DNA of 64,000 nt, taken from Chondrilla cf. caribensis. Its lineage: Eukaryota; Porifera; Demospongiae; Chondrillida; Chondrillidae. The notes below the pieces were generated by a model. That model saw only the letters and a list, made by a program, of their open reading frames with translations. It ran no database searches and was not told where the DNA came from. The translations under genes and the position numbers were made by a program. Shown here in pieces: positions 1,731 to 60,412 of this stretch (the first letter of the stretch is position 1; each line of letters starts with the position of its first letter). The stretch lies in NCBI GenBank assembly GCA_964020155.1, contig OZ026546.1, positions 175,001 through 239,000 of the forward strand, given 5' to 3'.

Positions 1731-1810
<80 letters not shown>

Positions 1811-3960: not shown

Positions 3961-4007
<47 letters not shown>

Positions 4008-5781: not shown

Positions 5782-5961
5782 TTAATAAGGTGCTGATGGA
5801 GGAGGCTGATATGGCTGCCCTGAAGGAGGTGGTTGGTAGGACTGAGCAGGAGGAGGTTGTTGTCTCTGCATGCTAGGTGAGGTTTGAAGCTTACTCTATC
5901 CAAGAGAGAGTGAAGATGCCGTCAATCAGTGCTGTGTACAGTTACACACACACACACACAT

Positions 5962-10802: not shown

Positions 10803-10852
<50 letters not shown>

Positions 10853-15400: not shown

Positions 15401-15783
15401 TACAGGTATATGGCCAGACCAATCGTCCACAGCACAGACCCTGTGGTTCCATATATGGCAAACCAACCATCTGTGGTACATGCGTTCCTCAAGTATGCGT
15501 TTTGTGGGTCCTCACGCATTTTTGTGTCGAAATCCACAGCTGCTCCTATCAGATTGGCTATCGAGTACGTGAGGTCCATGACGGAGATGTGTACTAGGAT
15601 TTCTCTAGCTTTGGTTCGGACGGATTTGATCAAAATGTACGATAAAATGATCAACAACGAACCGAGTGAAGATAGTATGCACATTATGATGGCCAAGGCA
15701 GCCGAAGCGTCCTGTTCCGCTGGGTTTATCTCTCCTGGCTGGAGAATGGGGCTCAGACATCCTTCTGGGAGCACGGGGTCCAT
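12435..15783 (-). CDS. GPR157-like seven-transmembrane receptor, copy 2
   Basis: Second member of the receptor group. Exons 15100-15783, 14591-14794 and 12435-12629, all phase 0, give 360 residues. The last exon lies almost 2 kb beyond the second and is easily missed: it opens GVGDSGQGFFNGILF, the span-7 signature shared with copies 1 and 3. Cys102 and Cys182 (SGWC) are the conserved pair. Spans 1-5 fall near residues 28-53, 61-84, 106-132, 142-168 and 198-222; span 6 is in exon 2 (LMAIPVIFLLLRIWTICTGI). The 1961-bp second intron holds three minisatellites. The start codon is preceded by only 60 bp shared with copy 3 on the other strand. Confidence 0.87.
12681..12850. repeat. 42-bp repeat, four diverged copies
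   Basis: Four copies of a unit containing gatgtaacat and gtatgatgcaat, spaced 42 bp, in intron 2 of receptor copy 2. Confidence 0.8.
13362..13790. repeat. 26-bp minisatellite, about 16 copies
   Basis: Near-identical copies of a unit containing ggataggtctattgtaaggt in intron 2 of receptor copy 2. High identity suggests recent expansion. Confidence 0.95.
14035..14178. repeat. 16-bp minisatellite (ggaggtgggacctgat)
   Basis: Nine copies, differing mainly by gga/ggg, in intron 2 of receptor copy 2. Confidence 0.95.
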
Positions 15784-15843
15784 TTTGTACTCACGTGACC
15801 ACAATTCGTAACCTGAACACAGCTGACTGTCACAAGACAAAAA
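15784..15843. promoter_or_regulatory. 60-bp divergent promoter between two receptor genes
   Basis: The start codons of receptor copies 2 and 3 face away from each other with 60 bp between. The interval carries a perfect palindromic E-box, TCACGTGA, at 15791-15798, and no TATA box. Both 5'UTRs must be very short or overlap the opposite coding exon, unless unseen upstream exons exist. A role in coregulation is inference. Confidence 0.55.
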
Positions 15844-17486
<1,643 letters not shown>

Positions 17487-21014: not shown

Positions 21015-21740
21015 TATTCACTGAGAGTACCTTGTGCATGTAGTTATTTGTAGAAGCAATTACATTGGTTGAATGATGTCATGCGTGCTTATGTAACTGC
21101 ACACATATACAATTGCACACATGTATATTATGCACGTACATGCAAGTGCAAACTGTATAATATACTTATTATGGTTTTAGTATTGTTGCTATTGATGGAA
21201 TGCCCACATGTGATGTTGTAGATCCCCAACAGTTGAGGTTGCACTATAGCTAGTGTCATGTGAGTGCTTTGGGTATTTGAAAATGATGTGATCATGTGAA
21301 AATTCCTGTGGCTTATTGATTGTATCTTGGTTGTACCTGTGGAGTGTTTTTCAATGCATTGGTTTTAGTTTCAACCTTCTACAAATGTCATGTTGTTCAC
21401 TGGCTGTGTACTGTGTGTCAGGTCACGAGGCCACTCGCATGTCTCCTTCCACTGCCTGGAATGAGGGACAAGGCACTGTTTGAGGAATGCCTCCACTCTC
21501 ATCAGGGGCAAGAATTATCATGCCAACTACAGCAAACCTTCAGTGCAATCTGCCCACAAACAACATATCAGCTAACAACAACCTCATACTAAGTAAGACT
21601 GACCGCCTAATCTCAACTGGTCACTAGACTAGTAAAGTTAACCATAATGTGTGACCAGTGATGTCCTTGAGATGTACATTAGCAATTATTACTAAGTTTC
21701 AGATTAGATGTCTTTGAGCCTTTACACTTTGAATAATCAA

Positions 21741-23560: not shown

Positions 23561-24524
23561 GACGATGTCTGTTCGTTTAGTGCCCGTGTGTCCCGGTGTG
23601 TCCGTGTTGTGTTTAGTTGATTGTGTTGTTTTAGGACGACAAGTTTTGGAAAGAGTACATCTGCTATTTTTGTTGCAGTAAATTCATTGTGTCATTTTCT
23701 GCTTATAAATGTTGTCTGTCTGTACATGTTTAACTGTTTCCACTGGAATATTATATCCATGCACTCAATATGCAAAGCGTTTTTTTGTAAACACAATGGA
23801 ATAATACACTATATATTTTTTGAATTATGATTTGATTGATGAGGTATCTACCGATGTGGTGGTGTAGTATCTGAAGTGTCTCAAATGTAGCTCTTAAGTA
23901 TCTCACAGCCAGCCCTTACCCTCATTGCTTCTTAGGATGAAGTTGGAAAGGCTTTCCCACTTCTGATCTAGGAAATGGGAAGGGAAAAAGGCTGACTATG
24001 GGAGTAGTCCTTGGGGTGTACATGTGTGTTACCTGTGTCAGTTGAACCCTCGGTAGGCTGTGGTGACCATGCAGTATAAACTACATATGGCTTGTCACCA
24101 TGAGGTCTGTACTGTAGGTCTCTCGATGTGTACTTACACACGATATTGTGCTCCTGTAAGAGTCATCTGGACCCTGGATAGGTTGTGGTGACCAGCAGCG
24201 GTAGTCCAGGTTCCATTCCTATACCCAGTATATTATGGCATGATGCATGCATGTCAAGTGCATGTCACTGTGGTGGTACTGGTGTACGCACTTAACCATA
24301 TAGATCCACATGGTATACATATTGTGTACGTATTGCATAGTAGAGCTACTATATTATCACAATAGTATTGTATGTTATCATGTATGTGTAATTTAAAATG
24401 TACAATCATTATAATGGACAAATTCAACACAAGTGTTTGAAGTAATTTGATTGGAGAAATGTAAACTTGATAAAAATATCAGATAAACAAATAAATATTA
24501 TAATTTTATAAATTATTATTCTCT

Positions 24525-24555
24525 CCATATGGAGAGAGAACATAATATACAATAC
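24525..24555. other. Palindrome at the end of the 23-bp array, copy A
   Basis: A perfect inverted repeat, TCTCTCCATATGGAGAGA, flanked by AT-rich DNA just beyond the minisatellite. It is retained in copy B at about 40860-40880. As RNA it would form a short hairpin; function unknown. Confidence 0.6.
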
Positions 24556-24605
24556 AAATACAAACACATGTGTCTGTGTCTCTCAATATGGATATGTACA
24601 GAGAG

Positions 24606-25560
24606 TATTGCCTTGGTGGAGCAGAGGGTGTGGTCCTGGTAGAGCAGAGGATGTGGTCTTGGTAGAGCAGAGGGTGTGGTCTCGATAGAGCAGAGGGTGT
24701 GGTTTCGGTAGAGCAGAGGGTGTGGTCTCGTTAGAGCAGAGGGTGTGGTCTTGATAGAGCAGAGGGCGTGGTCTTGGTAGAGCAGAGGGCGTGGTCTTGG
24801 TAGAGCAGAGAGCGTGGTCTTGGTAGAGCAGAGGGTGTGGTCTTGGTAGAGCAGAGGGTGTGGTCTTGATAGAGCAGAGGGTGTGGTCTTGGTAGAACAG
24901 AGGGTGTGGTCTTGATAGAGCAGAGGGTGTGGTCTTGGTAGAGCAGAGGGTGTGGTCTTGGTGGAACAGAGGGTGTGGTCTTGGTAGAGCAGAGGGCGTG
25001 GTCTTGATAGAGCAGAGGGTGTGGTCTTGGTAGAGCAGAGGGTGTGGTCTTGGTAGAGCAGAGGGCGTGGTCTTGGTAGAGCAGAGGGTGTGGTCTTGAT
25101 AGAGCAGAGGGGGTGGTTTCGGTAGAACAGAGGGTGTGGTCTTGGTAGAGCAGAGGGTGTGGTCTTGATAGAGCAGAGGGTGTGGTCTTGGTAGAGCAGA
25201 GGGTGTGGCATTGGTAGAGCAGAGGGCGTGGTCTTGGTAGAGCAGAGGGTGTGGTCTTGATAGAGCAGAGGGTGTGGATTCGGTAGAGCAGAGGGTGTGG
25301 TCGTGGTAGAACAGAGGGTGTGGTCTTGGTAGAACAGAGGGTGTGGTCCTGGTAGAACAGAGGGTGTGGTCCTGGTAGAACAGAGGGTGTGGTCCTGGTA
25401 GAGCAGAGGGTGTGGTCGTGGTAGAACAGAGGATGTGGTCTCGGTAGAACAGTGGGTGTGGTCCTGGTAGAGCAGAGGGTGTGGCCTTGGTAGAGCAGAG
25501 GGTGTGGTCTTGGTAGAGCAGAGAGTGTGGTCCTGGTGGCAGGGTGGGTGTGGTCCTGGT
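24606..25560. repeat. 23-bp minisatellite array, copy A (about 41 units)
   Basis: Tandem units containing tggtcttggtagagcagagg, varying at a few fixed positions. The unit length is not a multiple of three and holds no stop in any minus frame, so a 23-residue repeat is open in all three frames. It lies downstream of the ankyrin gene's stop codon, so at most it is transcribed as 3'UTR. Confidence 0.95.
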
Positions 25561-25881
25561 GGCAGGGTGGGTGTGGTCCTGACATAGGTGTGGATATGAT
25601 TCTGGTGTGGTCCTGGTAGAGACTATAATGATGCATCCTGTGATAGGAGTAACACACGATTGTGAAGTGAGGTACGTATTGTAGAACTGACACAGGACCA
25701 CAAGTACATTACAATGACCACCTACTTGAGAAGAACGAGAGAGTTCTTGAATGACGTTCTTCACACCTTTCTTCCAGTTCATAGTTCCCTACCTCATTAA
25801 AGAGTGTCTTAAGATCTCATGGTGGCCATGTTTCTAACAACTACTTCACATCCTGGAACTGGTTGTGGTATGATAGTAATT

Positions 25882-26928: not shown

Positions 26929-29900
26929 TGAAGGCTACTCTCCACAGATGTACTCTGTACTACATGTACAGTTGATAGTGGTTCCAGTGGTGGGCGTGGC
27001 CTAGGGACTACAGGGTATGGACGACGTGATCCGGAAACAGAGGAAACATGAATTCGAAGATGTTCGGACTTCAGTGAGGACATCATGGTTGACTGGGTCT
27101 TGTCCTACGACAAAGTATAAAGAGTTGAATCAATTCCCATTGCCAAGCTGGTTATATCTGGAAATGGAACACAATCAAACTCACTTCTAAAGGTGCTAGC
27201 TCTTCTACAATCTTGTTTGTCATGTCATCAACAGTCTTCTTTGTCTCAAAGTGTCCTACAGCATCAAGCAAGTTCTTCCAGGTCACATGGCGGTCATGTT
27301 TCAACCATGTACTCAACATGGTTCGGTAGGCAACTTTGTCTTGATGGGAGTGAAATTGGATCTTCAGTAACTCATCTTCACTAACCTCCAGAATCACACC
27401 TACATCAAACCAGGCATCTAAGTGATGGAGTTTAGGAAGAACATGCTTGACTATGAGCCTTAGTTCAGGTCTCTTCTTGAGAGTCTTGTCCTTAACACTT
27501 TCTTCTGACTGAGATTCTGAATATCTTGAAGGATGTACACCAAACAAATGAGCCACTATCCTAGAAGCAGCTTCTTGTCCACCTGCCTCACAGCTCATCA
27601 AGGCTTTCAAAGGAAGAAGAGCACCAATGGCTTCTTGTTGTATTTGCTTTGGTAGGTTAGCCCACAGACCTGGTCCACCACCTGCTCTCTCAATCATATC
27701 GGCAACATCATGGAAGTCAAAACGATGAGCTATGTCAAGTGGACTGAGACCGTTGGGGAAGGGTTCGTTAACTGTATACTTTGTGAGTGGGTGGGAGATC
27801 AGCTTCTCTATGAAGACTGCGTAGTCCTTGGCACCACTCTTAAATGAATTACGGTAACCAACAGGTACTGTGGTGTATTTGAATGTTAGCAGTGAAATGT
27901 GCAATGACGTGAGAGGACATCCTTCAGGTAAATGAAGCTGATGGTAGATATCAACTGTTGGAAAGAACGATTCCAGCACTTCACTTGTCATCGACCATGT
28001 TTGGTGAGCTGCTTCAGTAAATATACTCTCTTTTCTGGAAAGTGTTGTTAACACAAGTGGATCACCTGTGAAGGCACCCATAACCAAAATCTTGCTTAGA
28101 TCTAGTAAGTTCCTACTCTTGAGAAAATTAATGATTTCAACGATGGATTCTCCGCAGTCGAACCCACAAGCTTTACAGATTTCAGACAATTTGTTCATCT
28201 GCCCAAACATTATAGCTTGTTCGAACATGGAGAGACCATAACTACTTCGAGCTGAGATACTACAATTTTTTGAAACCAATAATTTCACCATTTTAACATT
28301 ATCCTCTCCAGCTGCCCACATTAGAGGGGTTTGACCAATTGAATTACAGCAATCCAGAGGATTCTTATCAGGGGCACACTCCAGTTGACGAGAAGACTCT
28401 ACCTCTGATCCAGTGTCCACAGGGTGATGTGAATGATATTGCTCAATTGCTTCTGATAAAACTGACACTACTTCTACAGAACCACTGAAAACAGTTGAAT
28501 GTAGAGGAGTTCCAAACACACCTGCCACTACTGTTGGATCGGCACCTAATCTCAGTAATTTATGCACTGCTTCCAGTTTACCATCACTAGCTGCTGAGTG
28601 GAGGGGAGTGTAGCCATCAGCATCTCCTCCATTGATATCCAAACCATGTTCTACAAACAAACCTAGGAAGTCAACATGACCACCTTGAGCAGCAGAATGT
28701 AGGATATTTAGACCAACACTGGTCACTACATCAATTGGACAACCAGCTTCCAATAAAACTAACACTACCTCCTTGTGACCACCCAACGCAGCCTGATGTA
28801 GTGGAGTCCCCCTAGTACCAGCAACCTTGGTTATTGATTGTTCTCCACCCAATCTCAGTAATTCGTGCACTGCTTCCAGTTTACCATTAGCAGCTGCCAA
28901 GTGGAGGGGAGTGTAGCCATCAGCATCTCCTCTATTGACATCAAAACCACATTCTACCAACAAACCTAGTAAGTCAACATGACCACCTTGTACAGCAAAA
29001 TGTAGAATATTTTGACCAACACTGGTCACTACATCAATTGGACAACCAGCTCCCAATAAAACTAACACTACCTCCTTGTGACCGCCCAATGCAGCCTGAT
29101 GTAGTGGAGTCCCATAAATACCAGCAACCTTGGTTATTGATGGCTTTCCACCCAATCTCAGTAATTCATGCACTGCTTCCAGTTTACCATCAGCAGCTGC
29201 TGAGTGGAGGGGAGTGTAGCCATCAGCATCTCCTCCATTGATATCCAAACCACGTTCTACAAACAAACCTAGGAAGTCAACATGACCACCTTGTACAGCA
29301 AAATGTATGATATTTTTACCAACACTGGTCACTACATCAATTGGACAACCAGATCCCAATAAAACTAACACTACCTCCTTGTGACCACCAAACACAGCCC
29401 GATGTAGTGGAGTCCCATAAATACCAGCAACCTTGGTTATTGATGGCTTTCCACCCAATTTCAGTAATTGGTGCACTGCTTCCAGTTTACCATTCCTAGC
29501 TGCTGAGTGGAGGGGAGTGTAGCCATCAGCATCTCCTCCATTGATATCCAAACCACGTTCTACAAACAAACCTAGGAAGTCAACATGACCACCTTCAGCA
29601 GCAGAATGTAGGATATTTTTACCAACACTGGTCACTACATCAATTGGACAACCAGCTCCCAATAAAACTAACACTACCTCCTTGTGACCACCAAACACAG
29701 CCTGATGTAGTGGAGTCCCATAAGTACCAGCAACCTTGGTTATTGATGGCTTTCCACCCAATTTCAGTAATTTGTGCACTGCTTCCAGTTTACCATTCCT
29801 AGCTGCTGAGTGGAGGGGAGTGTAGCCATCAGCATCTCCTCCATTGATATCCAAACCACGTTCTACAAACAAACCTAGGAAGTCAACATGACCACCTTCA

Positions 29901-32899
29901 GCAGCAGAATGTAGGATATTTTCACCAACACTGGTCACTACATCAATTGGACAACCAGATCCCAATAAAACTAACACTACCTCCTTGTGACCACCAAACA
30001 CAGCCCGATGTAGTGGAGTCCCATAAATACCAGCAACCTTGGTTATTGATGGCTTTCCACCCAATCTCAGTAATTCATGCACTGCTTCCAGTTGACCATA
30101 CTGAGCTGCTGAGTGGAGGGGAGTGTAGCCATCAGCATCTCCTCCATTGATATCCAAACCATGTTCTACAAACAAACGTAGTAAGTCAACATGACCACCT
30201 TGAGCAGCAGAATGTAGGATGTTTTTACCAACACTGGTCACTACATCAATTGGACAACCAGATCCCAATAAAACTAACACTACCTCCTTGTGACCGCCCA
30301 ATGCAGCCTGATGTAGTGGAGTCCCATATGTACCAGCAACCTTGGTTATTGATGGCTTTCCACCCAATCTCAGTAATTCGTGCACTGCTTCCAGTTTACC
30401 ATTCCTAGCTGCTGAGTGGAGGGGAGTGTAGCCATCAGCATCTCCTCCATTGATATCCAAACCATGTTCTACAAACAAACCTAGTAAGTCAACATGACCA
30501 CCTTGAGCAGCAGAATGTAGGATATTTAGACCAACACTGGTCACTACATCAATTGGACAACCAGCTTCCAATAAAACTAACACTACCTCCTTGTGACCAA
30601 CCAATGCAGCCCGATGTAGTGGAGTCCCATAAATACCAGCAACCTTGGTTATTGATGCCTTTCCACCCAATCTCAGTAATTCATGCACTGCTTCCAGTTT
30701 ACCATACTGAGCTGCTGAGTGGAGGGGAGAGTAGCCATCAGCATCTCCTTCATTGATATCCAAACCATGTTCTACAAACAAACCTAGGAAGTCAACATGA
30801 CCACCTTGAGCAGCAGAATGTAGGATATATTGACCAGCACTGGTCACTACATCAATTGGACAACCAGCTCCCAATAAAACTAACACTACCTCCTTGTGAC
30901 CACCCAACACAGCCTGATGTAGTGGAGTCCCCATAGTACCAGCAACCTTTGTCATTGATGCCTTTCCACCCAATCTCAGTAATTCATGCACTGCTTCCAG
31001 TTGACCATACTGAGCTGCTGAGTGGAGGGGAGTGTAGCCATTAGCATCTCCTCCATTGATATCCAAACCACGTTCTACCAACAGACCTAGTAAGTCAACA
31101 TGACCACCTTCAGCAGCAAAATGTAGGGCACTCTGACCATCGCTAGTTAACACATCAATTGGACAACCTGCATCTAATAAGACTAACACTATCTCCTTGT
31201 GACCACCATATGCAGCCTGATGTAAAGGAGTCCCCTTAATACCAGCAACCATTGTCATTGATGGCTTTCCACCCAATCTCAGTAATTCACACACTACTTT
31301 CAGTTTACCACAACTGGCTGCATAGTGGAGGGGAGTAGTACCATCACTTCCCTGTGCACCAACAGCAGCCCCTCCGGCAATCAGTTCTTTTATCACTGCA
31401 ACATGTCCTCCTTCTGCTGCTCTATGAAGGACAGTATAACCTTCACTGTCTACTGCATCTACTGGACATCCATGGTCTAATATTGCTGACACAGTCTGTA
31501 CATCACCAGTGGAGGCTGATTGGATCAGTAAATCACGAACAGTCTCGTCATCTAGTGCTGCTATAAACTCTTGTCTTCTCTGCTCATCAGAAGGCTCTTC
31601 TCTCTGCTCACACTCAACATCCTCTACTCCACCATACTCCAACAGTTCCTCTAATGTCAAATACTTCTCACACATCACAGCCCATTTCAATGGGGTATTA
31701 CCTTCATTATCTACAGTGTTAACGTTGTTACCTAGATCAACAAGGACACCAATTGATGCAGCTTCTTCACTTGTTGCTGCATGATGTAAGGGAGTGCGGC
31801 CATGTCTGTCCACTGGATCGATACAGCATCCTCTCTCATGGAGGAGCTTTATCACCTCAACCTGTCCATGTGATGCAGCATGATGGAGAATGGACCAACC
31901 CTCTTCATCAGTCAGGTCAGGGGGGAGACCCAAATCGAGATAATTCTTCACCATTGCAATGTCCCCAGATTGAGCAGCCTCAAATATGTCACCCACGGCT
32001 ACCTGTTCACCACTCACACTACTGTGAGATTGTACTTCCTGTTCACCACTCACATTACTGTGGGATTGTACTTCCTGTTCACCACTTATACTACTGTGGA
32101 GTTTTACTTCCTGTTCACCACTCACACTACTGTGGGGTTCTACTTCCTGTTCACCACTCACATTACTGTGGGATTGTACTTCCTCTTCACCACTCACACT
32201 ACCGTGGGATTGTACTTCCTGTTCACCACTTATACTACTGTGAGATTGTACTTCCTGTTCACCACTCACACTACTGTGGGGTTCTACTTCCTGTTCACCA
32301 CTCACATTACTGTGGGATTGTACTTCCTGTTCACCACTCACACTACTGTGGGATTGTACTTCCTGTTCACCACTTATACTACTGTGAGATTGTACTTCCT
32401 GTTCACCACTCACACTACTGTGAGATTGTACTTTCTGTTCACCACTCACACTACTGTGGGGTTCTACTTCCTGTTCACCACTCACACTACTGTGGGGCTC
32501 TACTTCCTGTTCACCACTCACACTACTGTGGGATTGTACTTCCTGTTCACCACTCATACTACTGTCAGATTGTACTTCCTGTTCATCACTCACACTACTG
32601 TGAGATTCTACTTCCTGTTCACCACTCACACTACTGTGGGGTTTTACTTCCTGTTCACCACTCATACTATTGTGACATTCCACTTCCTGCCTATCACTTC
32701 CTATTATTCCACCGTCATGTTTCAAAGTCACAGCTGCTGATGTATTTGTGCCATTTTGTTGTTGTTGTCCACTAGAACGTACACCTTCCTCAACCTTATG
32801 ATGTACATTTATTTCTGGTATGTTTTGTGTTATCAGTTTATTTGTGCTTTCATCCTTGCTATCAAGGTGACCTTTGCTTTGTGATTTTGGGTCGGCCAT
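25882..32899 (-). CDS. Ankyrin-repeat/death-domain protein, copy A, with CARD exon and second death domain
   Basis: Exon 1 (27185-32899, 1905 codons) encodes an N-terminal tail and about 18 copies of a 12-residue SVSGEQEVQSHS repeat (residues ~70-298). Ankyrin repeats follow (~300-1450), including nine tandem 101-residue blocks of three ankyrins, then a helical region and a death domain (~1815-1900, LHHLDAWFDVGVILEVSEDE). Exon 2 (26927-27104) is a Pro-rich linker, exon 3 (26402-26682) a CARD (FEQFKEEFLQ; RRLRDDRVIPQEIETEIM) and exon 4 (25882-26177) a second death domain ending ERIQ. Exons 2 and 4 join in phase (2062 aa). Including the CARD with its strong gtgagc donor shifts frame and ends the protein soon after; a donor 13 bp further on (gtgtgc) restores it (2160 aa). 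No signal peptide; probably an intracellular adaptor or sensor. Confidence 0.82.
26270..26375. repeat. (CA)n microsatellite after the CARD exon
   Basis: Interrupted run in the intron between CARD and second death-domain exons of copy A, beginning within about 30 bp of the donor. The sense strand reads (GT)n. Confidence 0.88.
26731..26926. repeat. (CA)n microsatellite abutting the linker-exon donor, copy A
   Basis: About 195 bp filling almost the whole 244-bp intron between linker and CARD exons. On the sense strand (GT)n starts exactly at the 5' splice site. Confidence 0.93.
28550..31300. repeat. 303-bp higher-order coding repeat, copy A
   Basis: Nine tandem blocks of 303 bp, each three ankyrin repeats, with the recurrent sequence GTPLHQAALGGHKEVVLVLL. 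Blocks within this gene share copy-specific residues (DINGGDADGY, NGKLEAVH) that differ from copy B (DVNGEDADGY, CGRLEAVH). Confidence 0.9.
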
Positions 32900-33108
32900 T
32901 TTGTTGCAATGTATAATATATATTTACAAGTACTCCTGTTGCCACGGCTACATGAAAGGTTGAAAAATAGACGATAAACTCTCCTCATCTACTCCAAGTG
33001 TGAGAATATGGTTTATATTTCCACAAATATATAGCATGCAATATAATTAGAGGATTAGATCAAATTACAGTGTGATACTTGTCAGCTTGAGTCCTTCAGA
33101 TTAAATGT
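32900..33108 (-). promoter_or_regulatory. 5' flank of ankyrin gene copy A
   Basis: About 210 bp of AT-rich sequence between the start codon and the DNA element, alignable with copy B 48282-48480. Promoter or 5'UTR by position only. Confidence 0.4.
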
Positions 33109-36685: not shown

Positions 36686-37240
36686 TTTTTTTTTTTTCCA
36701 TGTCACCATTCATTATTAACAACAAAGGAAAGGACTGGTAGCTAACATGCATACTTAGAGATAAAATGAATAAAAATAAGGGAAAAAAAAGGTAATGGGA
36801 GATGTGGGTTGACTAGCACTGCCAATTGTTCTGAAGAAAAAACAAGCTCAGTATAGCTAAGACAACCGAATATGAACTGTAGACCTATGTGTATAACACT
36901 GAAATTGTTGAAAGAACACAGACATACAAAGATACATTTACAAGTAGACAAAAGAGTTTAACAAGGAGTTCAACCCAACCAGTTGCGCTTGCACCAGATG
37001 TTGTAAGATCCAGTGATGGTACGCCCAATGACATCACACTCGAAGGATCGCCTCTCGCTGGCCTTGGGCTTCAACAGACGGTAGAGGTCCTGGAACCCAT
37101 TGGTGTTCATGAAGCCTCTAGAGCTGACTTCAAGGGTGATGACCTGTGTCCTGTGGGTTCTTGAGCAGGCAGTCTTCAGCTCCCTGTACCTGTCGACCTT
37201 CCTCGTGGTGGCATGGCCTATGTTGGTCTCATATGGGATG
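36686..37240 (-). mobile_element. 5'-truncated non-LTR retrotransposon with poly(A)
   Basis: On the minus strand a short open stretch to the stop near 36970 encodes a typical non-LTR ORF2 C-terminus (IPYETNIGHATTRKVDRY; VITLEVSSRGF). It is followed by about 270 bp of 3'UTR and a run of about 15 A's at 36687-36701. The insert interrupts a (TC)n tract that is continuous at the matching position in copy B (about 51026-51045), so it came after the duplication. The (TC)n on both sides acts as target duplication. Confidence 0.75.
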
Positions 37241-38890
<1,650 letters not shown>

Positions 38891-40169: not shown

Positions 40170-40850
40170 GGATGTGTACTTACATATGATATTGTGCTCC
40201 TGTACGAGTCATCAGGACTCTGGATAGGTTGTGGTGACCAGCTGTGGTAGTCCAGGTTCCATTCCTATACCCATTATATCATGGCATGATGCATGCGTGT
40301 CAAGTGCATGTCACTGTGGTGGTACTAGTACTGGTGTACGCACTTAACCATATATTTATATAGATCCACATGGTATACATATTGTGTATGTATTGCATAG
40401 TAGAGCTACTATATTATCACAATAGTATTGTAAGTTATCATGTATGTGTAATTTAAAATATAATGGACAAGTACAACACAATTGTATTGTGCTCCTGTAA
40501 GAGTCATCTGGACCCTGGAGAGGTTGTGGTGACCAGCAGCGGTAGTCCAGGTTCCATTCTTATACCCATGCATTATATTATGGCATGATGCATGCGTGTC
40601 AAGTGCATGTCACTGTGGTGGTACTGGTGTACGCACTTAACCATATGCATATAGATCCACATGGTATACATATTGTGTATGTATTGCATAGTAGAGCTAC
40701 TATATTATCACAATTGTATTGTACGTTATCATGTACGTGTAATTTAAAATGTACAATCATTATAATGGACAAGTACAACACAAGTGTTTGAAGTAATTTG
40801 ATTGGAGAAATGTAAACTTGATAAAAATATCGGATAAACAAATAAATATT
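40170..40850. repeat. Internal tandem duplication of about 300 bp in copy B
   Basis: The tract attgtgctcctgta...tatggcatgatgcatgc...catggtatacatattgtg occurs twice (from about 40190 and from about 40490). The second is closer to the single copy A tract at 24150-24480. Confidence 0.8.
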
Positions 40851-40962
40851 ATAATTTTATTCTCTCCATATGGAGAGAGAGAGCATAATATACAATACAA
40901 ATACGTACAAATACATGTGTCTGTGTCTCTCTCGATATGGATATGCACAGAGAGTATTGCCT

Positions 40963-42105
40963 TGGTGGAACAGAGGGTGTGGTTTCGGTAGAGCAGAGGG
41001 TGAGGTCTTGGTAGAGCAGAGGGCGTGGTCTTGGTAGAGCAGAGGGTGAGGTCTTGGCAGAGCAGAGGGTGTGGCATTGGTAGAGCAGAGGGCGTGGTCT
41101 TGGTAGAGCAGAGGGTGCGGTCTTGGTAGAGCAGAGGGTGTGGTCTCGGTAGAACAAAGGGTGTGGTCTTGGTAGAGCAGAGGGTGTGGTCTTGGTAGAG
41201 CAGAGGGTGTGGTCTTGGCAGAGCAGAGGGTGTGGCATTGGTAGAGCAGAGGGTGCGGTCTTGGTAGAGCAGAGGGTGTGGTCTTGGTAGAGCAGAGGGT
41301 GTGGCATTGGTAGAGCAGAGGGCGTGGTCTTGGTAGAGCAGACGACGTGGTCTTGGTAGAGCAGAGGGTGAGGTCTTGGTCGAGCAGAGGGTGTGGTCTC
41401 GGTAGAACAAAGGGTGTGGTCTTGGTAGAGCAGAGGGTGTGGTCTTGGTAGAGCAGAGGGCGTGGTCTTGGTAGAGCAGAGGGTGCGGTCTTGGTAGAGC
41501 AGAGGGTGTGGTCTCGGTAGAACAGAGGGTGTGGTTTTGGTAGAGCAGAGGGTGTGGTCTTGGCAGAGCAGAGGGTGTGGCATTGGTAGAGCAGAGGGCG
41601 TGGTCTTGGTAGAGCAGAGGGTGCGGTCTTGGTAGAGCAGAGGGTGTGGTCTCGGTAGAACAGAGGGTGTGGTCTTGGTAGAGCAGAGGGTGTGGCATTG
41701 GTAGAGCAGAGGGCGTGGTCTTGGTAGAGCAGAGGGTGTGGTCTTGGTAGAGCAGAGGGTGTGGTCTTGGTAGAGCAGAGGGTGTGGTCTTGGTAGAGCA
41801 GAGGGTGTGGTCTTGGTAGAGCAGAGGGTGAGGTCTTGGTAGAACAGAGGATGTGGTCTTGGTCGAGCAGAGGGTGTGGTCTTAGTAGAGCAGAGGGTGT
41901 GGTCATGGTAGAACAGAGGGTGTGGTCCTGGTAGAGCAGAGGGTGTGGTTGTGGTAGAACAGAGGATGTGGTCTCGGTAGAACAGTGGGTGTGGTCCTGG
42001 TAGAGCAGAGGGTGTGGCCTTGGTAGAGCAGAGGGTGTGGTCTTGGTAGAACAGAGGGTGTGGTCTTGGTAGAGCAGAGAGTGTGGTCCTGGTGGCAGGG
42101 TGGGT
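40963..42105. repeat. 23-bp minisatellite array, copy B (about 50 units)
   Basis: Same unit as 24606-25560, with variants tggcattgg, gcggtcttgg and gaggtcttgg not common in copy A. The arrays have therefore been reshuffled independently. Non-coding by position, despite a 488-codon frame running through it. Confidence 0.95.
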
Positions 42106-42414
42106 GTGGTCCTGACATAGGTGTGGATATGATTCTGGTGTGGTCCTGGTAGAGACTATAATGATGCATCCTGTGATATGAGTAACACAAGACTGTGAAG
42201 TGAGGTACGTATTGTAGAACTGACACAGGACCACAAGTACATTACAATGACCACCTACTTGAGAAGAATGAGAAAGTTCTTGAATAACTTTCTTTACACA
42301 TTTCTTCCAGTTCATAGTTCCCTACCTCATGAAAGAGTGTCTTAAGATCTCATGGTGGTCATGTTTCTAACAACTACTTCACATCCTGGAACTGGTTGTG
42401 GTATGATAGTAATT

Positions 42415-48281
<5,867 letters not shown>

Positions 48282-49796
48282 TTTGTTGCAAAAAATGCGT
48301 ATATTTTTATGAGTACTCCTGTTGCCACGGCTACATGGAAGGTTGAAGAATAGACAATCAACTCTCCTCATCCACTCCAAGTGTGAGTGGGTTATATTTC
48401 TACAAATATATAGCATGCAATATAATTGGAGGATTAGATCAAATTACAGTCTAATACTTGAGACCTTCAAATTAATGAGACCTCTGAATCTGTTTAAAGC
48501 TGATATCACAAATCAATTAGCACTTCACTCATCAAGTAGATTTTCATTACAATTTATTCTAATTAATATAATGCTATTATTATGTGTTAAGCACATTATG
48601 GTGCCATATTTTCAAAGATCAAATGTAAAATTTGCACTTTTGCAGATATTAAGAACATATTAACATATTATACAGATTAATAATTATTATTGAAATAATT
48701 TTAAATTGCTTAGGTTTCTCATTCCATCCCTCCCCCAGAGATGGTTTTTATAGTAAACTGAATATGCTACTTAACTAACTTTAGATACCTACTCCATCTC
48801 TCCCCATTGCTAGCAGACATGCCCTTCTTGGACAAACACTTACCTTATATAGATATGGCAATTATGGTGAAATTGGGTTATATTTAAAATTCCAACAAAC
48901 ACTGAAATATAGCGTAAAGCGTGCGCTTTTGTCCCTTCAACACATATGCCCCTTGTCACTTGTCATGCACACAAATATGAATAGTAAAATTAAATACTAA
49001 TACTTTTTGTGCGAGCGATTGCATGCCTGCACACAATTTATGTGCAAATGTTTCGTGTGTGATTTCAAACAATCACGTGAGCATGTATATGTACGGAAAG
49101 ATTTGAGCACATCTGATTCACTGACTATTATGCCACTCTGTTAGACTACATGAACAAAACTCAAGGTATAGTGAGCTTCCTTGTGGTTCCAAGAGTGGGC
49201 CAATGATTACCAAGGTGCATGTACTGTATACACAAGGACTACTCAACTAGCATACATCCACTGTATACTGGAGTGGACAGTCTACAACTTTGGACACTTC
49301 TGGCCCTGAATAATATGGTGGATGGAGGGAGTCCAACAGTCTGGATACAGGAACAATTCTCACCTGCCAACAACCCCTGAGTGATCAACTTGGTACAGAG
49401 TACACTAGAACCACAGGTGTTGTCTACACTCCACACAGTGACAGGATGACAGAGGGACCTTCCTAGGATTCATCATCAACTCAGTTCAGAGTAAACTATA
49501 TCAAGAAAGAATGATATAACATTGTGAGATACAGAACAAGACAGAATCAGTGGAATTGATGCTGTAACTACTAGTCAGAAAAGAATATTTCTTAAATAAA
49601 TACTATAATTTATTGTTAGTACAAAATCAACAAAGCAGAAAGTTTTATTGTGGTGTGTACTGTGTTAGGGAACATATTATGCAGATCACATTGGTCCATT
49701 TAGTGCACATAGGAAGTTAGCCTTCAGTCGTGAATGCAAGGTTTTGATGGTACATACTAGGTCATTACTAATGTACCATGAAGTTATAATATGAAA
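48282..49796. other. 5' flank of ankyrin gene copy B and non-coding duplicated sequence
   Basis: Alignable with 32900-33108 and 33900-35800 of copy A, without the 791-bp element. No exon recognised. Confidence 0.55.
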
Positions 49797-51564: not shown

Positions 51565-54500
51565 TCATCTTAGTCCAAGTTTCTGTTTCTCCCTCTCCTT
51601 CTTTCTGACCACGTCAATGTTGCGTTCTTTCCAAGTGCTCTTCCTAAGCTTCACCGGACGGCTACCAATATACTTACCTGAGAGGGGAGGGGTGGGGGAA
51701 CATTGTAACTGACAACAGAATGTACACTGATGGGGGTGGGGTGGAGGAACATTGTAACTGACAACAGAATGTACACTGATGGAGGTGGGGTGGGGGAACA
51801 TTGTAACTGACAACAGAATGTACACTGATGGAGGTGGGGTGGGGGAACATTGTAACTGACAACAGAATGTACACTGATGGGGGTGGGGTGGAGGAACATT
51901 GTAACTGACAACAGAATGTACACTGATGGAGGTGGGGTGGGGGAACATTGTAACTGACAACAGAATGTACACTGATGGAGGTGGGGTGGGGGAACATTGT
52001 AACTGACAACAGAATGTACACTGATGGAGGTGGGGTGGGGGAACATTGTAACTGACAACAGAATAATACAAAGGCATGTCAACATTGAATGTCTGCCACG
52101 TGACTGCTAAAGTCACATGACAACCGCATGACCTCTTGCTCACCATTCATCTCCTTCAAAGCATTCATGAAGTCGTGAGGGTCCTTGAAGCTGATGAAAC
52201 CGAACCCTTTGGACTTTTTAGTGTGCTTGTCTCTCACGACCTTTGCCTTGAGGAAGGACGGGTAGTGTCGGAATGCTCTTGTCAACGTGTCCTCATTGAC
52301 ATCATTCCCAAGGTCTCCACAGAAGATCCTGTAATCATCTGTAGGAAGTCAAAAAGAACCATAGTGTCGTTCCTGCATGGGTGGGGTGGGGACACTCCTC
52401 TAGTAGAGGGTGGGATGGGGACACTCCCCTAGTGGAGGGTGGGGTGGGGACACTCCTCTAGTGGAGGGTGGGGTGGGGACACTCCTCCAGTGGAGGGTGG
52501 GATGGGGACACTCCTCCAGTGGAGGATGGGGTGGGGACACTCCTCTAGTGGGAGTGGGGTGGGGACACTCCTCCAGTGGAGGGTGGGGTGGGGACACTCC
52601 CCTAGCAGAGAATGGGGTGGGGACACTCCTCTAGTGGAGGTTGGGGTGGGGCACTCCTCCAGTGGAGGGTGGGATGGGGATACTCCTCTAGTGGGGGGTG
52701 GGGTGGGGACACTCCTCTAGTGGAGGGTGGGGTGGGGATACTCCTCTAGTGGAGGGTGGGGTGGGGACACTCCCCTAGTGGAGGGTGGGGTGGGGACACT
52801 CCTCTAGTGGAGGGTGGGGTGGGGACACTCCTCTAGTGGAGGGTGGGGTGGGGACACTCCCCTATTTGGATCCACCCACAACAAATCAACATCAACTTAC
52901 TAGGGTCCCACTCATCCAGTGTCGGATCCATCCATATCTGCCCACCAGCACATCTGACGTTCTTCCTTTTCCCACCCTTCCCTTTCTCTGTAGCCATGTT
53001 ATTGGCAGCCTTCACGACGCTCTCTGACAGTTCTGTTGCTGAAGGTTGTTGGGTGTCCATTTTCTTCACTAGGCTTGGTCCTGGGGTGGGTGTGGCCTGG
53101 GGGTGTGTCATCATCACCATGGGTTGTTGTAGCGGCATTCTGAAGGGCTGTTCAGTCAAGCGTTGTGTTGGAGTGGGTGTGGCAATCTGCATGAGGGGTG
53201 TGGTCATGACGGGTTGTGGCATGCTATGGGGATTCATTGGTGGTGGTCGTTGAAGTGCCACACCCATGAGAGGCGGGGCCCTATTGGTACCACTCCCAAG
53301 CACCTCCTGTTCAAACCTAAACGAGTGAAAATGACAATTGAAATGAACAGATCAAGCTACCAGCTGGATAACAGGTGGATCAAGCTACCAGCTGGATAAC
53401 AGGTGGATCAAGCTACCAGCTGGATAACAGGTGGATCAAGCTACCCAGCTGGATAACAGGTGGATCAAGCTACCCAACTGGGTAACAGGTGGATCAAGCT
53501 ACCCAACTGGGTAACAGGTGGATCAAGCTACCCAGCTGGATAACAGGTGGATCAAGCTACCCAACTGGGTAACAGGTGGATCAAGCTACCCAGCTGGATA
53601 ACAGGTGGATCAAGCTACCCAACTGGGTAACAGGTGGATCAAGCTACCCAACTGGGTAACAGGTGGATCAAGCTACCCAACTGGGTAACAGGTGGATCAA
53701 GCTACCCAACTGGGTAACAGGTGGATCAAGCTACCCAGCTGGATAACAGGTGGATCAAGCTACCCAACTGGGTAACAGGTGGATCAAGCTACCCAGCTGG
53801 ATAACAGGTGGATCAAGCTACCCAACTGGGTAACAGGTGGATCAAGCTACCCAACTGGGTAACAGGTGGATCAAGCTACCCAACTGGGTAACAGGTGGAT
53901 CAAGCTACCAGCTGGGTAACAGGTGGATCAAGCTACCCAACTGGATAACAGGTGGATCAAGCTACCAGCTGGGTAACAGGTGGATCAAGCTACCCAGCTG
54001 GATAACAGGTGGATCAAGCTACCCAGCTGGATAACAGGTGGATCAAGCTACCCAGCTGAATAACAGGTGGATCAAGCTACCCAGCTGAATAACAGGTGGA
54101 TCAAGCTACCCAGCTGGATAACAGGTGGATCAAGCTACCCAGCTGGGTAACAGGTGGATCAAGCTACCCAGCTGGATAACAGGTGGATCAAGCTACCCAA
54201 CTGGATAACAGGTGGATCAAGCTACCCAGCTGGATAACAGGTGGATCAAGCTACCCAACTGGATAACAGGTGGATCAAGCTACCCAGCTGGATAACAGGT
54301 GGATCAAGCTACCCAGCTGGGTAACAGGTGGATCAAGCTACCCAGCTGAATAACAGGTGGATCAAGCTACCCAGCTGGATAACAGGTGGATCAAGCTACC
54401 CAACTGGGTAACTGGTGGATCAAGCTACCCAGCTGGATAACTGGTGGATCAAGCTACCCAGCTGGATAACAGGTGGATCAAGCTACCCAGCTGGATAACA

Positions 54501-55663
54501 GGTGGATCAAGCTACCCAGCTGGATAACAGGTGGATCAAGCTACCCAGCTGGATAACAGGTGGATCAAGCTACCCAGCTGGATAACAGGTGGATCAAGCT
54601 ACCCAGCTGGATAACAGGTGGATCAAGCTACTCAACTGGATAACAGGTGGATCAAGCTACCCAGCTGGATAACATGTGGATCAAGCTACCCAGCTGGGTA
54701 ACAGGTGGATCAAGCTACCCAGCTGGATAACAGGTGGATCAAGCTACCCAGCTGGGTAACTGGTGGATCAAGCTACCCAGCTGGATAACTGGTGGATCAA
54801 GCTACCCAGCTGGATAACAGGTGGATCAAGCTACCCAGCTGGATAACAGGTGGATCAAGCTACCCAACTGGATAACTGGTGGATCAAGCTACCCAACTGG
54901 GTAACAGGTGGATCAAGCTACCCAACTGGATAACAGGTGGATCAAACTACCCAACTGGATAACAGGTGGATCAAGCTACCCAACTGGATAACAGGTGGAT
55001 CAAGCTACCCAACTGGATAACAGGTGGATCAAGCTACCCAGCTGGATAACAGGTGGATCAAGCTACCCAACTGGATAACAGGTGGATCAAGCTACCTAAC
55101 TGGATAACAGGTGGATCAAGCTACCTAACTGGATAACAGGTGGATCAAGCTACCCAGCTGGATAACAGGTGGATCAAGCTACCCAACTGGATAACAGGTG
55201 GATCAAGCTACCCAGCTGGATAACAGGTGGATCAAGCTACCCAACTGGATAACAGGTGGATCAAGTTACCCAACTGGATAACAGGTGGATCAAGCTATCC
55301 AGCTGGACGTCCTGTGCCTTCGTTCATTGGAGCATACAAGCCATATTAAAGTCAATTCTTAAATGATTCGTGCGCTCTTTTTTACTGGGAGCTTGATTCA
55401 CATGCACAGGCAGCATTGGGAACTTGATTACATTCACATGCACAGGCAGCACTGGGAACTTGATTCCATTCACATGCACAGGCAGCACTGGGAACTTGAT
55501 TACATTCACATGCACAGGCAGCACTGGGAACTTGATTCCTTTAACAAGCTAAACAGGCTAAACTTGACCAAAGCTACTGGTCAACTAGAAGTCGGTTGAA
55601 ATTTGAATACATTCACCTTGACATTTCCTCTGCCAATTGACTAGCCTTCTGTACCCCGGCCAT
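51565..55663 (-). CDS. RBM42: RNA-binding protein RBM42 homologue
   Basis: Four coding exons (55617-55663, 52901-53316, 52144-52338, 51565-51677) keep phase and give 256 residues. The N-terminus ends in an FEQEVLG motif. A Pro/Gln/Met-rich middle leads to DEWDP, then one RRM near residues 156-235 with RNP2 RIFCGDLG and RNP1 KGFGFISF. The C-terminal tail GSRPVKLRKSTWKERNIDVV is almost as in vertebrate RBM42. The family takes part in pre-mRNA splicing and mRNA metabolism. It is shorter than the human protein (about 480 residues), mainly in the Pro-rich middle. Each of the three introns is largely one minisatellite. It lies head to head with the FKBP-CRTAP gene, 268 bp between starts. Confidence 0.92.
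51690..52065. repeat. 49-bp minisatellite in RBM42 intron 3
   Basis: About 7.5 units containing ggggtgggggaacattgtaa and acagaatgtacact, very alike, occupying most of the 466-bp intron. Confidence 0.95.
52375..52862. repeat. 29-bp minisatellite in RBM42 intron 2
   Basis: About 17 units containing gtggagggtggggtggggac and actcctcta, filling the 562-bp intron. Strongly G-rich on the plus strand. Confidence 0.95.
53352..55305. repeat. 29-bp minisatellite in RBM42 intron 1 (about 67 units)
   Basis: Units containing ggataacaggtggatcaagc and tacccagct, differing by cagctgga, caactggg, caactgga and similar variants in a mosaic. It fills about 1.95 kb of a 2.3-kb intron. A further four-copy 36-bp repeat (gcagcactgggaacttgatt) lies at 55385-55535. 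Confidence 0.96.
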
Positions 55664-55931
55664 TTTCTTCCACTCGTACAGTGACACAAATACGGCTTTC
55701 CTCGAAACAAACTTGAACAATTATTGGAGAAACGACCCGCACGTAATCAATGAGCGGCCATTTTACTTCAACTCTATAGCGGAATTAATACAGGAATCAT
55801 CAGTGGTGTTTTCTGTACTAAATGATGTGCACATTGAGAGGTCAAAGGTCACTTATTCCACAAAAGCCATTGTCTCTACGTAGCTATTATAGCACGTGTT
55901 GCTTTCCAACAGCAGAACCTATCGAGTTGCA
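55664..55931. promoter_or_regulatory. Divergent promoter region RBM42 / FKBP-CRTAP
   Basis: 268 bp between two outward-facing start codons. Unique sequence with no TATA box near either start. Shared promoter inferred from spacing. Confidence 0.5.
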
Positions 55932-56809
55932 ATGTTGCTGCGTCTCTTTCTCGTTCTGTTGTGCTCTTCTGGTGCTCTCTCCGCAGTTGAAGTAGGAGAA
56001 ATAGGTTTCCAAGAAGAGAATTGGGGAGACGGTCTGAAGGTGCTGGTGACGTACCGTCCAAAGTCGTGCACACATCGCGCTCAGCAAGGGGACGTCATCC
56101 ACTATCACTACGTTGGGAGGCTGGCGAGCGATGGAACCATCTTTGGAAAAAGGTATGCACTCTCCTCGTTGCAGGTAACGCTTCTCTCTCTCCTTCATCA
56201 TTAATCTCCTTCACCATCCATCTCCTTCACCATCAATCTTCTTCACCATCAATCATTTTCACCATTCATCTCCTTAACATCAATTTTATTCACCATCCAT
56301 CTCCTTCACCATCAATCTTCTTCACCATCAATCTCCTTCACCATCAATCTCCTTCACCACCAATCTCCTTCACCACCAATCTCCTTCACCATCAATCTCC
56401 TTCACCATCAGTCTCCTTCACCATCAATCTCCTTCACCATCAATCTCCTTCACCATCAATCTCCTTCACCATCAATCTCCTTCACCATCAATCTCCTTCA
56501 CCATCAATCTCCTTCACCACCAATCTCCTTCACTGCTATTCTTCTTCATGTTGGACACAGCTTTGACTACAACAGTCCCTACATAGTTGCCCTGGGGGAA
56601 GGCCGGATCATCGAGGGGATGGACCGAGGGCTGGTGGGCACTTGTCTGTGGGAGAGACGCCGCATCACCTTCCCACCTGAGCTCGGTTACGGTCAACGGG
56701 GAGCAGGGGCCCTCATACCACCCAATGCCACTCTTGTGTTCTACATCAGGATGATCAAGATTGAGAGAGTGAGTCTGCTTGTGTGTATGTGTGTGTGTGT
56801 GTGTGTGTG

Positions 56810-56879
<70 letters not shown>

Positions 56880-56911
56880 TGTGTTTGTGTGTGCGCACGT
56901 GTTTTTGTGTG

Positions 56912-56956
<45 letters not shown>

Positions 56957-56999
56957 TGTGTGTATTTCTTATACGTTATGCATTCATTTCTATATCGCA

Positions 57000-57066
<67 letters not shown>

Positions 57067-57992
57067 CTGGTGAGTCATTAGGAACTGAGAAAAGGTTCAC
57101 AGACACGTACAAGAGTGCAATGGACGACTACAACCAGCAGTTGTTTGATGGAACGTTGGACAAACTGGAGGAAGTGATCATCCAGTACGGCCTGTATGTG
57201 AACAAGACTTTGGAGTGTTTCGCCAGATGTCAGGAGGTCTCAGCTGACAGCGCTCTCTCCAGTGAGGAGAAAGAGGTGGTTGGAAAGTTTGAGAAGGAGT
57301 TCCCGTTTGCTATGGAGTATCTGAACATGGCAGGTTTGCAGTGGGTGTATTGGAGAAGTAGGGAAGGAGAAGTATCAGAGGTCATCATGTTACGTAACAG
57401 TAAATGTAACGACGTTTACATTTAATAGTTAACTCCTTTCTGGTAATAGACCACCTGAAATTGGCTGTGCGGCAGTTGGCAGTTAATCATGTATGTGTTA
57501 ACTGCTATGACTTCATAACTTACTGCCTTACCTAACATACATAGTTCAATAGTACTTACAAAGATGTTCTCATCATCCTCCTGGAAAACACTCCTTGAAT
57601 TGAACGAAGCCCTAGTCTGATAAATCAATCCCTTCACAACTCTTCTTTATTCATTGTTTGCTGTATGTGTGTATGTGGTAGAATTGTCGTTGTCTACTCA
57701 TAAGTTTTTGGATATCGTAGTTTAATCACAATTCAGTCATTATGGAATCGTAAAAAGATCTTAGTTTTCTCCAACTGTATTGTAATTCTTATGTAGTGTC
57801 CATGTATTGAGGTGATGGTCTCTTCACCTTCTGTTCATTTGGTGTAGTTCGCTCAAAGTGTGTGAGGTCGTGCAAAGAAGACACGATGAGTTATGAAATG
57901 AGGACCCCGAACCCCGCCACCCTAATGTCCATCAGGAACCGGCGCACCTACGCCTACCTGCACTACTGCTACTACAAGGTGTGTGTGTGTGT

Positions 57993-58043
<51 letters not shown>

Positions 58044-58064
58044 GGTGTGTGGGTGTGTGGGAGT

Positions 58065-58100
<36 letters not shown>

Positions 58101-58111
58101 TGTGTGTGTGT

Positions 58112-58174
<63 letters not shown>

Positions 58175-60412
58175 TGTGTTTGTGTGTGTGTGTTTGTGTG
58201 TGTGTGTGTACATGGTTTCGTATTGATACCTCCCCTATGGCCTTCTACCCCATAGCAAGGTAACATGGAAGAAGCAGGAAAGTGTGCCTTCTCTCATTTC
58301 TTCAAAGAGCCCAACGACCAGTACACCAAACGTAACATCCCATTGTATCGCAGGGATCTTGCGTTGAAGGACAACGAGTATGTGTGGAGAGAGGAGGCAC
58401 CCGGGGTGAAGCTTTACCACAAGCTCTACCTGGAGGGTGACCAGGCGTACCAGCAGGAGGAGTGGCCTCTTGCTATTGAGCTGTTTCAGAGGTCCTTGAA
58501 GCTCCTGTTGGAGGTCAGTGACGTCATGCTACTTGAAAAGGGGTTCAATAGGTTATGAGAATGTGTGTGTGAAGATTAGTGTTGTATTTGTACAAGTATC
58601 TTCCTGCGTGGTTGGATGCTGGTTGATTTGTTTGTGTTTACTTTGCACATGTCATCATATGCATGCACAGGTGATATCCCATGAGGGTAATCCCCTATCT
58701 CTGTTACGTACATTGATGTCCTCATGTTCTCCCTCCCCCCTCACACACACACCACAGGACCTCCAGAACTGTTACTACCTGTGCGAGGACGTGCAGTTCA
58801 TCAATTTTACCTCCTCAAAAATGACTACCGATAAAGCTGCTATATTGACTCGATTCTTCTACACCCCTGATGCCAAGGAGTATGGTCTGCTGATGGAGGA
58901 TTTGGTGATGAACAACCTGCAGTGTCGGCATCAATGCTGGGTCGATGTAGATGCCATCAACGACACCTTCTACCATAATACTCTGACCAACATTCTCAAC
59001 TATCTTCAGTTCTGCTACTATCAAGGTGGGTCATATTCCATGCCACACCCACTCACACCCCATGCCACACCCACTCCTCACACCATGACACACCTACTCC
59101 ACATGCCATGCCACACCTACTCCAGCCACACCCTCAACCACACCCCAAATCACACTCAACCACATCCCAACCGTACTCAACTACACCCCAACCACACCCA
59201 ACCACACTCAACCACACCCCAACCACTCCCCCCTCTCTGGTAGTTGATAAACATGCGGAGGCGGTGCAGTATGCTGCCACATATGTTGCCATGCGACCAT
59301 CAGAGGAACAGATGGCCAAGAACATCAACTTCTACAAGTTAAATGTGAAGGTGGACGAGGAGTATTATGTGCCTATGAAGGTAGGTGTTTCTTTGTGAAT
59401 TAGGTCAGATTTCCAAGTGACACCCGTCACTACATGGCATGGTACTGATGACTATTGTGATGTGTGTGTGTACATGTACAAGTTGTACAATGGTCTTATG
59501 ACATGTGGTATACATGTACAAGCTGTACAGTGGTCTTATGATGTGTGTGTACATGTACCAGCTGTACAATGGTCTTATGACGTGTGTGTACATGTACCAG
59601 CTGTACAATGGTCTTATGATGTGTGTGTACATGTACAAGCTGTACAGTGGTCTTATGACATGTGGTGTACATGTACAAGTTGTACAATGGTCTTATGACA
59701 TGTGGTGTACATGTACAAGCTGTACAGTGGTATTATGACGTGTGAAGTACATGTACAAGCTGTACAATGGTCTTATGATGTGTGTGTACATGTACAAGCT
59801 GTACAATGGTCTTATGATGTGTGTGTACATGTACAAGTTGTACAATGGTCTTATGATGTGTGTGTACATGTACAAGCTGTACAGTTGTCTTATGATTTGT
59901 GTGTACATGTACAAGCTGTACAGCGGTCTTATGACGTGTGGTGTACATGTACAAATTGTACAGCGGTCTAATGATGTGTGTGTACATGTACAAGCTGTAC
60001 AGCAGTCTTATGAAGTGTGGTGTACCTGTACATGTACTGAAAACACATAAAGTCCACAATACATGTAATGTCTGTAAAGTCTGTACACTGTTTGTATAAT
60101 ACAGTATAATATGTCATACAGTCTGTACAATATGTCATACAGTCTGTACTATATGCCACACAGTCTGTACAATATGTCATACAGTCTGTACTATATGCCA
60201 CACAGTCTGTACAATATGCCACACAGTCTGTACAATATGTCACACAGTCTGTACAATACACATAGAAATTCTGCTTTGTGTAGGAATTAACAAAGCTACA
60301 GGAAAGACACTTAGCAGAAGAGAGACTCTTGCTGTTCTCCAAGAAGGGCCAACCAGTGAAGAAGATGGGGATTATGGGCGACGATCACTCCATCATGCAC
60401 AGCGAGTTGTAA
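55932..60412 (+). CDS. FKBP prolyl isomerase fused to a CRTAP/leprecan-like region (ER)
   Basis: Eight exons (55932-56152, 56561-56768, 57066-57333, 57848-57978, 58256-58513, 58758-59025, 59244-59380, 60284-60412) join without a phase conflict to 539 residues. Residues 1-18 are a signal peptide. Residues ~36-143 are an ER-type FKBP domain (YHYVGRLASDGTIF; ITFPPELGYGQRG; IPPNATLVFYI) with the ER-FKBP cysteines at 46 and 102. Gly72 replaces the usual catalytic-pocket Asp. Residues 144-539 match CRTAP/P3H4: helical repeats with four CxxxC motifs (CFARC, CVRSC, CYYLC, CRHQC) and the NILNYLQFCYYQ and TYAYLHYCYYK repeats, without an oxygenase domain. The C-terminus HSEL is a KDEL-type retention signal. 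Role: procollagen proline isomerisation and assembly of the prolyl-3-hydroxylation machinery (inferred). Confidence 0.86.
56195..56540. repeat. 16-bp minisatellite (caatctccttcaccat) in FKBP-CRTAP intron 1
   Basis: About 22 pyrimidine-rich copies between the donor at 56153 and the acceptor at 56560. It supplies an extended polypyrimidine tract. Confidence 0.94.
56783..56965. repeat. (GT)n microsatellite at the 5' end of FKBP-CRTAP intron 2
   Basis: About 180 bp, starting 14 bp after the 5' splice site at 56769. Confidence 0.94.
57002..57062. repeat. (CA)n microsatellite at the 3' end of FKBP-CRTAP intron 2
   Basis: Thirty CA units ending three bases before the 3' splice AG at 57064-57065. 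In RNA they are complementary to the (GU)n run at the other end of the same intron. Confidence 0.95.
57979..58212. repeat. (GT)n microsatellite abutting a FKBP-CRTAP donor
   Basis: Interrupted run that begins with the intron's own first GT and fills most of intron 4. Confidence 0.94.
59465..60030. repeat. 39-bp minisatellite with GTACATGTAC palindromes
   Basis: About 14 units containing tgtacatgtacaagctgtac and tggtcttatga in intron 7 of the FKBP-CRTAP gene. Followed at 60085-60255 by about eight copies of gtctgtacaatatgtcatac. Each unit contains palindromes. Confidence 0.93.

Follow-up and report, generated by a model that had tools for sequence, protein, structure and literature searches.

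The closest described systems are the human complex of P3H1, CRTAP and PPIB (PDB 8k0e, 8k0i, 8k17), the leprecan TPR protein SC65 (P3H4) and FKBP10 (FKBP65), an FKBP of the endoplasmic reticulum (ER). According to the two papers cited here, vertebrate CRTAP and P3H1 are mutually supporting and cyclophilin B is required for action of the complex (PMC4072593), the gene of SC65 lies beside Fkbp10 in mouse (PMC4847768), and defects in CRTAP, P3H1, cyclophilin B or FKBP10 lead to recessive brittle-bone disease (PMC4847768, PMC4072593). Here we describe a gene from the sponge Chondrilla cf. caribensis, located at 55932-60412 (+ strand) of a 64,000-nucleotide window (the whole stretch of DNA analysed, positions 175,001 to 239,000 of contig OZ026546.1), that encodes an FKBP and a CRTAP-type leprecan in a single chain. 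In the human complex the isomerase is a separate cyclophilin, whereas the sponge carries an FKBP on the CRTAP-type chain itself. SC65 resembles the sponge protein as a leprecan TPR protein without a dioxygenase, but two SC65 proteins (P0015 and P0019) contain no FKBP domain. FKBP10 resembles the sponge FKBP half as an ER FKBP with similar signature residues, although the fish protein (P0007) differs in having four FKBP repeats (split by eye), an EF-hand match (PF00036) and no leprecan region.

The gene model, read from genomic DNA alone, comprises eight exons, with GT...AG borders at all seven introns, that join into 1620 nucleotides encoding 539 residues and a stop codon without an internal stop, in agreement with the preliminary description of a single gene whose exons join without conflict. 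Exon 1 (55932..56152, ending in phase 2) encodes a putative signal peptide within residues 1-22 and the first part of the FKBP domain, with the remainder in exon 2 (56561..56768, ending in phase 0). The six remaining exons form the leprecan part, joined to the FKBP in phase 0 across intron 2 (56769..57065), which consists mostly of (TG)n and (AC)n repeats. The leprecan TPR region begins in exon 3 (57066..57333), which carries the first of four CxxxC motifs (residue 194), followed by the second in exon 4 (57848..57978; residue 237) and the third and fourth in exon 6 (58758..59025; residues 367 and 418). Between these, exon 5 (58256..58513) carries an Asn aligned with CRTAP Asn184, a collagen-peptide contact. 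The leprecan match ends in exon 7 (59244..59380) at residue 484, and exon 8 (60284..60412) supplies a C-terminal tail ending in HSEL before a TAA stop codon. Mean hydropathy rises above 1.5 only within residues 1-22 (15-residue windows starting at residues 1-520), bearing out the earlier claim that the CRTAP part has no signal peptide of its own. Scanning 55300-57100 for hydrophobic frames from ATG gave four at the threshold used, namely that at 55932 and three whose reading continues into the (TG)n tract of intron 2, and no exon offering an alternative start with a credible signal peptide was found there upstream of exon 3, just before which the TAG of the splice acceptor stands in frame. A 29-base tandem array (54000-55307), with approximately 45 copies in the scanned portion, stops roughly 600 bases before the start codon, and tandem repeats also occur inside five of the seven introns.

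Pfam analysis placed FKBP_C (PF00254) at residues 47-138, encoded by exons 1 and 2 (92.4 bits against a cut-off of 21.1), and TPR_leprecan (PF23557) at residues 157-484 (112.1 bits against 27), with TPR_P4H barely above its cut-off at residues 439-483. The cysteines of the four CxxxC motifs are invariant in the alignment, and none of the ten fused proteins (this one and the nine relatives described below) gave a Pfam match to a 2OG-dioxygenase domain at E <= 0.001. In a structural model of a relative, the predicted folds of both halves are seen, including the CRTAP fold with its collagen-peptide groove. Cys46 and Cys102 align with the ER FKBP cysteines of FKBP2 in all eight fused sequences tested, so that the window protein carries three marks of an ER FKBP: a hydrophobic start, paired cysteines and an HSEL end predicted to confer retention. 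The signal peptide, ER-type FKBP, CRTAP/P3H4-like region with four CxxxC motifs and retention-like C-terminus described previously are thus all recovered. By eye, a G-x-(K/R/M)-G-(D/E) motif stands shortly before the C-terminal end of all ten fused proteins, and PKSKGD is found near the end of SC65 proteins P0015 and P0019.

The preliminary description had proposed looking for proteins with both an FKBP and a leprecan region in sponges and other early animals, and nine were found in databases. Our first protein search returned 12 matches, eight of which combined the two domains in identical order (P0001-P0006, P0008 and P0009), the others being fish FKBP10 (P0007) and FKBP proteins P0010-P0012, all without a leprecan domain; a second search using the leprecan alignment added P0013. 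Pfam scans confirmed both domains in each of the nine, with P0008 beginning inside a cut FKBP domain, and the recurrence of this domain pair, in this order, in nine different proteins is therefore more than chance. P0001 shares 66% identity with the window protein over its full length, and the junction residues align across the fused relatives. P0002 and P0008 derive from the Demospongiae Halichondria panicea and Geodia barretti, and P0009 from Corticium candelabrum (Homoscleromorpha). Five relatives (P0001 and P0003-P0006) each consist of one unbroken frame of 531-548 residues, with longest contigs of 1759-3037 bases, compared with 4.5 kb for the window gene, and we therefore take them to be spliced transcripts. 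P0014 (306 residues, no FKBP), which looks like an exon-level prediction from a genomic contig, was excluded from the trees and from the count of fused proteins.

The fusion architecture is therefore already present in public databases, in at least two sponge classes, and is not unique to this genome, although it is not named there as a fusion. Existing names reflect one half only: 'SC65-like' for P0002 (NCBI), 'Cartilage-associated protein' for P0008, 'cartilage-associated protein-like' for P0009 and 'FK506-binding protein 2' for P0001 (a JGI label). Both halves belong to known families, and a description of their fusion as such was not found in the literature searched, no FKBP-CRTAP or FKBP-leprecan fusion being described in the titles and abstract openings among the open-access papers listed.

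Phylogenetic analysis of the leprecan part united the ten fused proteins in one group (94/96), divided into a homoscleromorph-type pair (P0009 and P0013; 100/100) and eight demosponge-type proteins including the window protein (99/98), which groups with P0001 inside the set that includes Halichondria and Geodia; a demosponge origin of the window is accordingly most likely. The FKBP tree likewise united the nine fused proteins that have an FKBP half (90/90) and divided them along the same principal line (97/93, 100/99); both fused groups (94/96 and 90/90) lie slightly below the values at which the tree tool counts a branch as firm (95 and 80). Across 36 protein pairs, identity in one half correlates with identity in the other (r 0.77), and the simplest history suggested by these sequences would be a single fusion predating the divergence of Demospongiae and Homoscleromorpha. 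A third protein search, using the leprecan part, gave 12 matches: three fused proteins (query included), the fragment P0014 and eight vertebrate or insect leprecans without FKBP (seven scanned with Pfam, P0018 judged by precomputed domains). No early animals besides sponges were among these 12 matches, the search method requiring short exact shared words. Absence in the protein searches means little, because the second search, which returned three proteins, missed P0002, P0003, P0005 and P0006, four of the five database proteins of its own alignment. No relatives were found among 12 pattern matches in viral contigs or 219 in bacterial and archaeal genomes, and of eight phage records, the five listed fit the FKBP stretch only.

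The genome searched (137 Mb, 37 contigs) contains a second leprecan gene, on contig C25 (L011, ~1764-5957, - strand), with a hydrophobic start, leprecan exons and a downstream dioxygenase exon, whose frames contain HSDNC and GVTAVTRGRRCAVALWF; by its domains and motifs it is a predicted prolyl 3-hydroxylase (P3H). Its leprecan part is very divergent, with a branch of 3.56, far beyond the fused gene, and its tree position is not to be trusted; its row in the tree came from exons joined by hand, the first five only. No third leprecan was found in the genome by searches with PF23557, the gene's own leprecan part or frog SC65, apart from two weak matches on C10 and C23. Nine FKBP matches were detected, two of which belong to one FKBP2-like gene on C21 ending in DVDEL, and the FKBP frames on C7 and C14 look cytosolic by eye. 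When the whole genome was queried with fish FKBP10, the fused gene (exon 2) was the best of five matches (54% identity), and a gene with several FKBP10-type repeats was not found. Two other identities for the FKBP half were rejected: the genome's FKBP2, suggested by the JGI label of P0001, since a separate FKBP2-like gene lies on C21, and a piece of an FKBP51/52-like gene, since such frames lie on C7 (typed by eye).

Taken as a whole, sponges probably do have a single-chain ER protein composed of an FKBP and a CRTAP-type leprecan, which would work with a separate P3H enzyme. One signal peptide would bring the chain into the ER and the HxEL tail would retain it there. The N-terminal half is predicted to be an ER-type FKBP with a prolyl cis-trans isomerase fold, and the C-terminal half a non-catalytic leprecan of the CRTAP/SC65 kind that may grip unfolded procollagen in its TPR groove, so that the FKBP could act on, or bind, prolines adjoining the grip. 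A separate P3H-type enzyme would most likely dock on the CRTAP half, giving sponges a putative machine of two chains (enzyme and FKBP-CRTAP) compared with the three of vertebrates (P3H1, CRTAP and cyclophilin B), and the fusion would fix the ratio of isomerase to grip at one to one. The gene structure, the fusion, its conservation, the folds of both halves in the model of a relative and the presence of an enzyme gene are observed; that the chain forms a complex, has collagen as its substrate, isomerises or binds prolines through its FKBP and is retained in the ER is inferred.

Several observations weigh against this proposal. The pocket was scored at 11 FKBP12 active-site positions, and the window protein keeps six (Tyr26, Phe36, Ile56, Tyr82, Ile91 and Phe99) with changes at five (Asp37 to Gly, Arg42 to Tyr, Phe46 to Tyr, Val55 to Ile and Trp59 to Met). 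Gly occupies the Asp37 position in all seven demosponge-type sequences tested and Met replaces Trp59 in all eight fused sequences tested, because of which isomerase activity may be weak. In vertebrates the principal isomerase of collagen is not an FKBP: according to PMC4072593, absence of FKBP65 has a negligible effect on collagen helix folding in patients, and FK506 only slightly delays that folding. The Asn184 residue is absent from P0005 and P0006 and is Tyr in frog SC65; it is also kept in P3H1 and in the genome's own P3H, and therefore marks leprecans at large rather than CRTAP alone. The HxEL end is missing from both homoscleromorph-type proteins. A further divergent CRTAP could have been missed in the genome, because the PF23557 search missed the exons of the window gene itself and the matches of its leprecan part on C10 (E 0.065) and C23 (E 0.31) are weak. 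The genome also has 17 matches to the cyclophilin family, of which none is typed as cyclophilin B, leaving room for a cyclophilin partner, and the chain is known here from genomic DNA alone.

The altered pocket bears on a somewhat doubtful alternative, that the fused ER protein functions in chaperoning with an FKBP half that, in demosponges, is no longer an active isomerase and instead binds proline-rich peptides or serves as a spacer module. Asp is replaced by Gly at position 37 throughout the demosponge-type sequences tested, and P0009 and P0013 keep Asp, but the FKBP10fish_d2 repeat of fish FKBP10 also has Gly at this position. Met for Trp59 recurs in repeats 1-3 of that fish protein, and loss of FKBP65 hardly slows collagen folding in patients, as stated in PMC4072593; the six conserved pocket positions are nevertheless kept in all eight fused sequences.

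We consider it unlikely that the protein is instead an SC65/P3H4-like scaffold steering collagen lysyl hydroxylation rather than prolyl 3-hydroxylation. CRTAP and SC65 of vertebrates form one group (100/99) with the sponge group outside, so that the sponge gene shows no greater affinity to SC65 than to CRTAP; a single gene may also serve both functions. In favour are the NCBI name of the Halichondria copy and two statements of PMC4847768, that SC65 forms a complex with P3H3 and LH1, and possibly with cyclophilin B, and that Sc65 adjoins Fkbp10 in mouse.

The latter adjacency lends weight to the earlier suggestion that FKBP and CRTAP are naturally linked partners, and it also underlies a further idea, which we regard as quite improbable, that animals originally had the FKBP-CRTAP chain and that it was split outside sponges, so that FKBP10 and P3H4 remain neighbours in vertebrates. 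In mouse, under 900 bp separate Fkbp10 from exon 1 of Sc65, but the two are transcribed in opposite directions (PMC4847768). One FKBP tree split (95/92) sets the fused FKBPs and FKBP10 repeats against FKBP2, FKBP12 and a wheat FKBP, and another (98/94) sets the FKBP10 repeats against all the rest, so that placement of the fused FKBPs depends on the root of a tree that is small, unrooted and without FKBP7, 9, 11 and 14. The genome yielded no FKBP10-type gene and the fused gene matched the FKBP10 query best, but the comparison is without ctenophores, cnidarians, placozoans and choanoflagellates and the adjacency may be chance. It is also rather improbable that sponges keep an older two-chain collagen 3-hydroxylation machine with an FKBP10-like isomerase welded to CRTAP, an ancestral unit later split, of which the FKBP10-P3H4 pair of vertebrates is a trace, cyclophilin B having taken over the isomerase's place in the enzyme complex. 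Finally, despite the repeat-filled intron at the junction and a gene known from genomic DNA alone, two neighbouring genes (an ER FKBP and a CRTAP) wrongly joined are highly improbable, as nine relatives share the architecture with aligned junction residues, five of them in single frames on short contigs, and the separate signal-peptide start that would mark two genes was not found in credible form in the 55300-57100 scan.

The occurrence of the fused ER protein in two sponge classes implies that direct placement of an FKBP next to the collagen groove of a CRTAP is feasible, and suggests that machinery whose components underlie human brittle-bone disease can be constructed more simply. The fused chain offers a single recombinant molecule for measuring the coupling of isomerase action to the gripping and hydroxylation of collagen, and the origin of the FKBP10-P3H4 gene pair becomes testable by comparing early animals.

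Elsewhere in the window, three frames resemble seven-helix receptors by eye: 9977-11119 (+), without a Pfam match, 14923-15891 (-) and 15817-16515 (+), for which Pfam gives matches to 7tm_2 and to the cyclic AMP receptor family of slime moulds. A 795-residue frame (18630-21017, -) has no Pfam match at E <= 0.001, and the frame at 37165-38121 (+) resembles by eye the endonuclease part of a non-LTR retrotransposon. Two long unbroken ankyrin-repeat frames (27152-32923 and 43620-48443, - strand; 1923 and 1607 residues) are alike by eye and are accompanied by similar tandem-repeat frames near 24516-25788 and 40760-42321, perhaps reflecting a segmental duplication.
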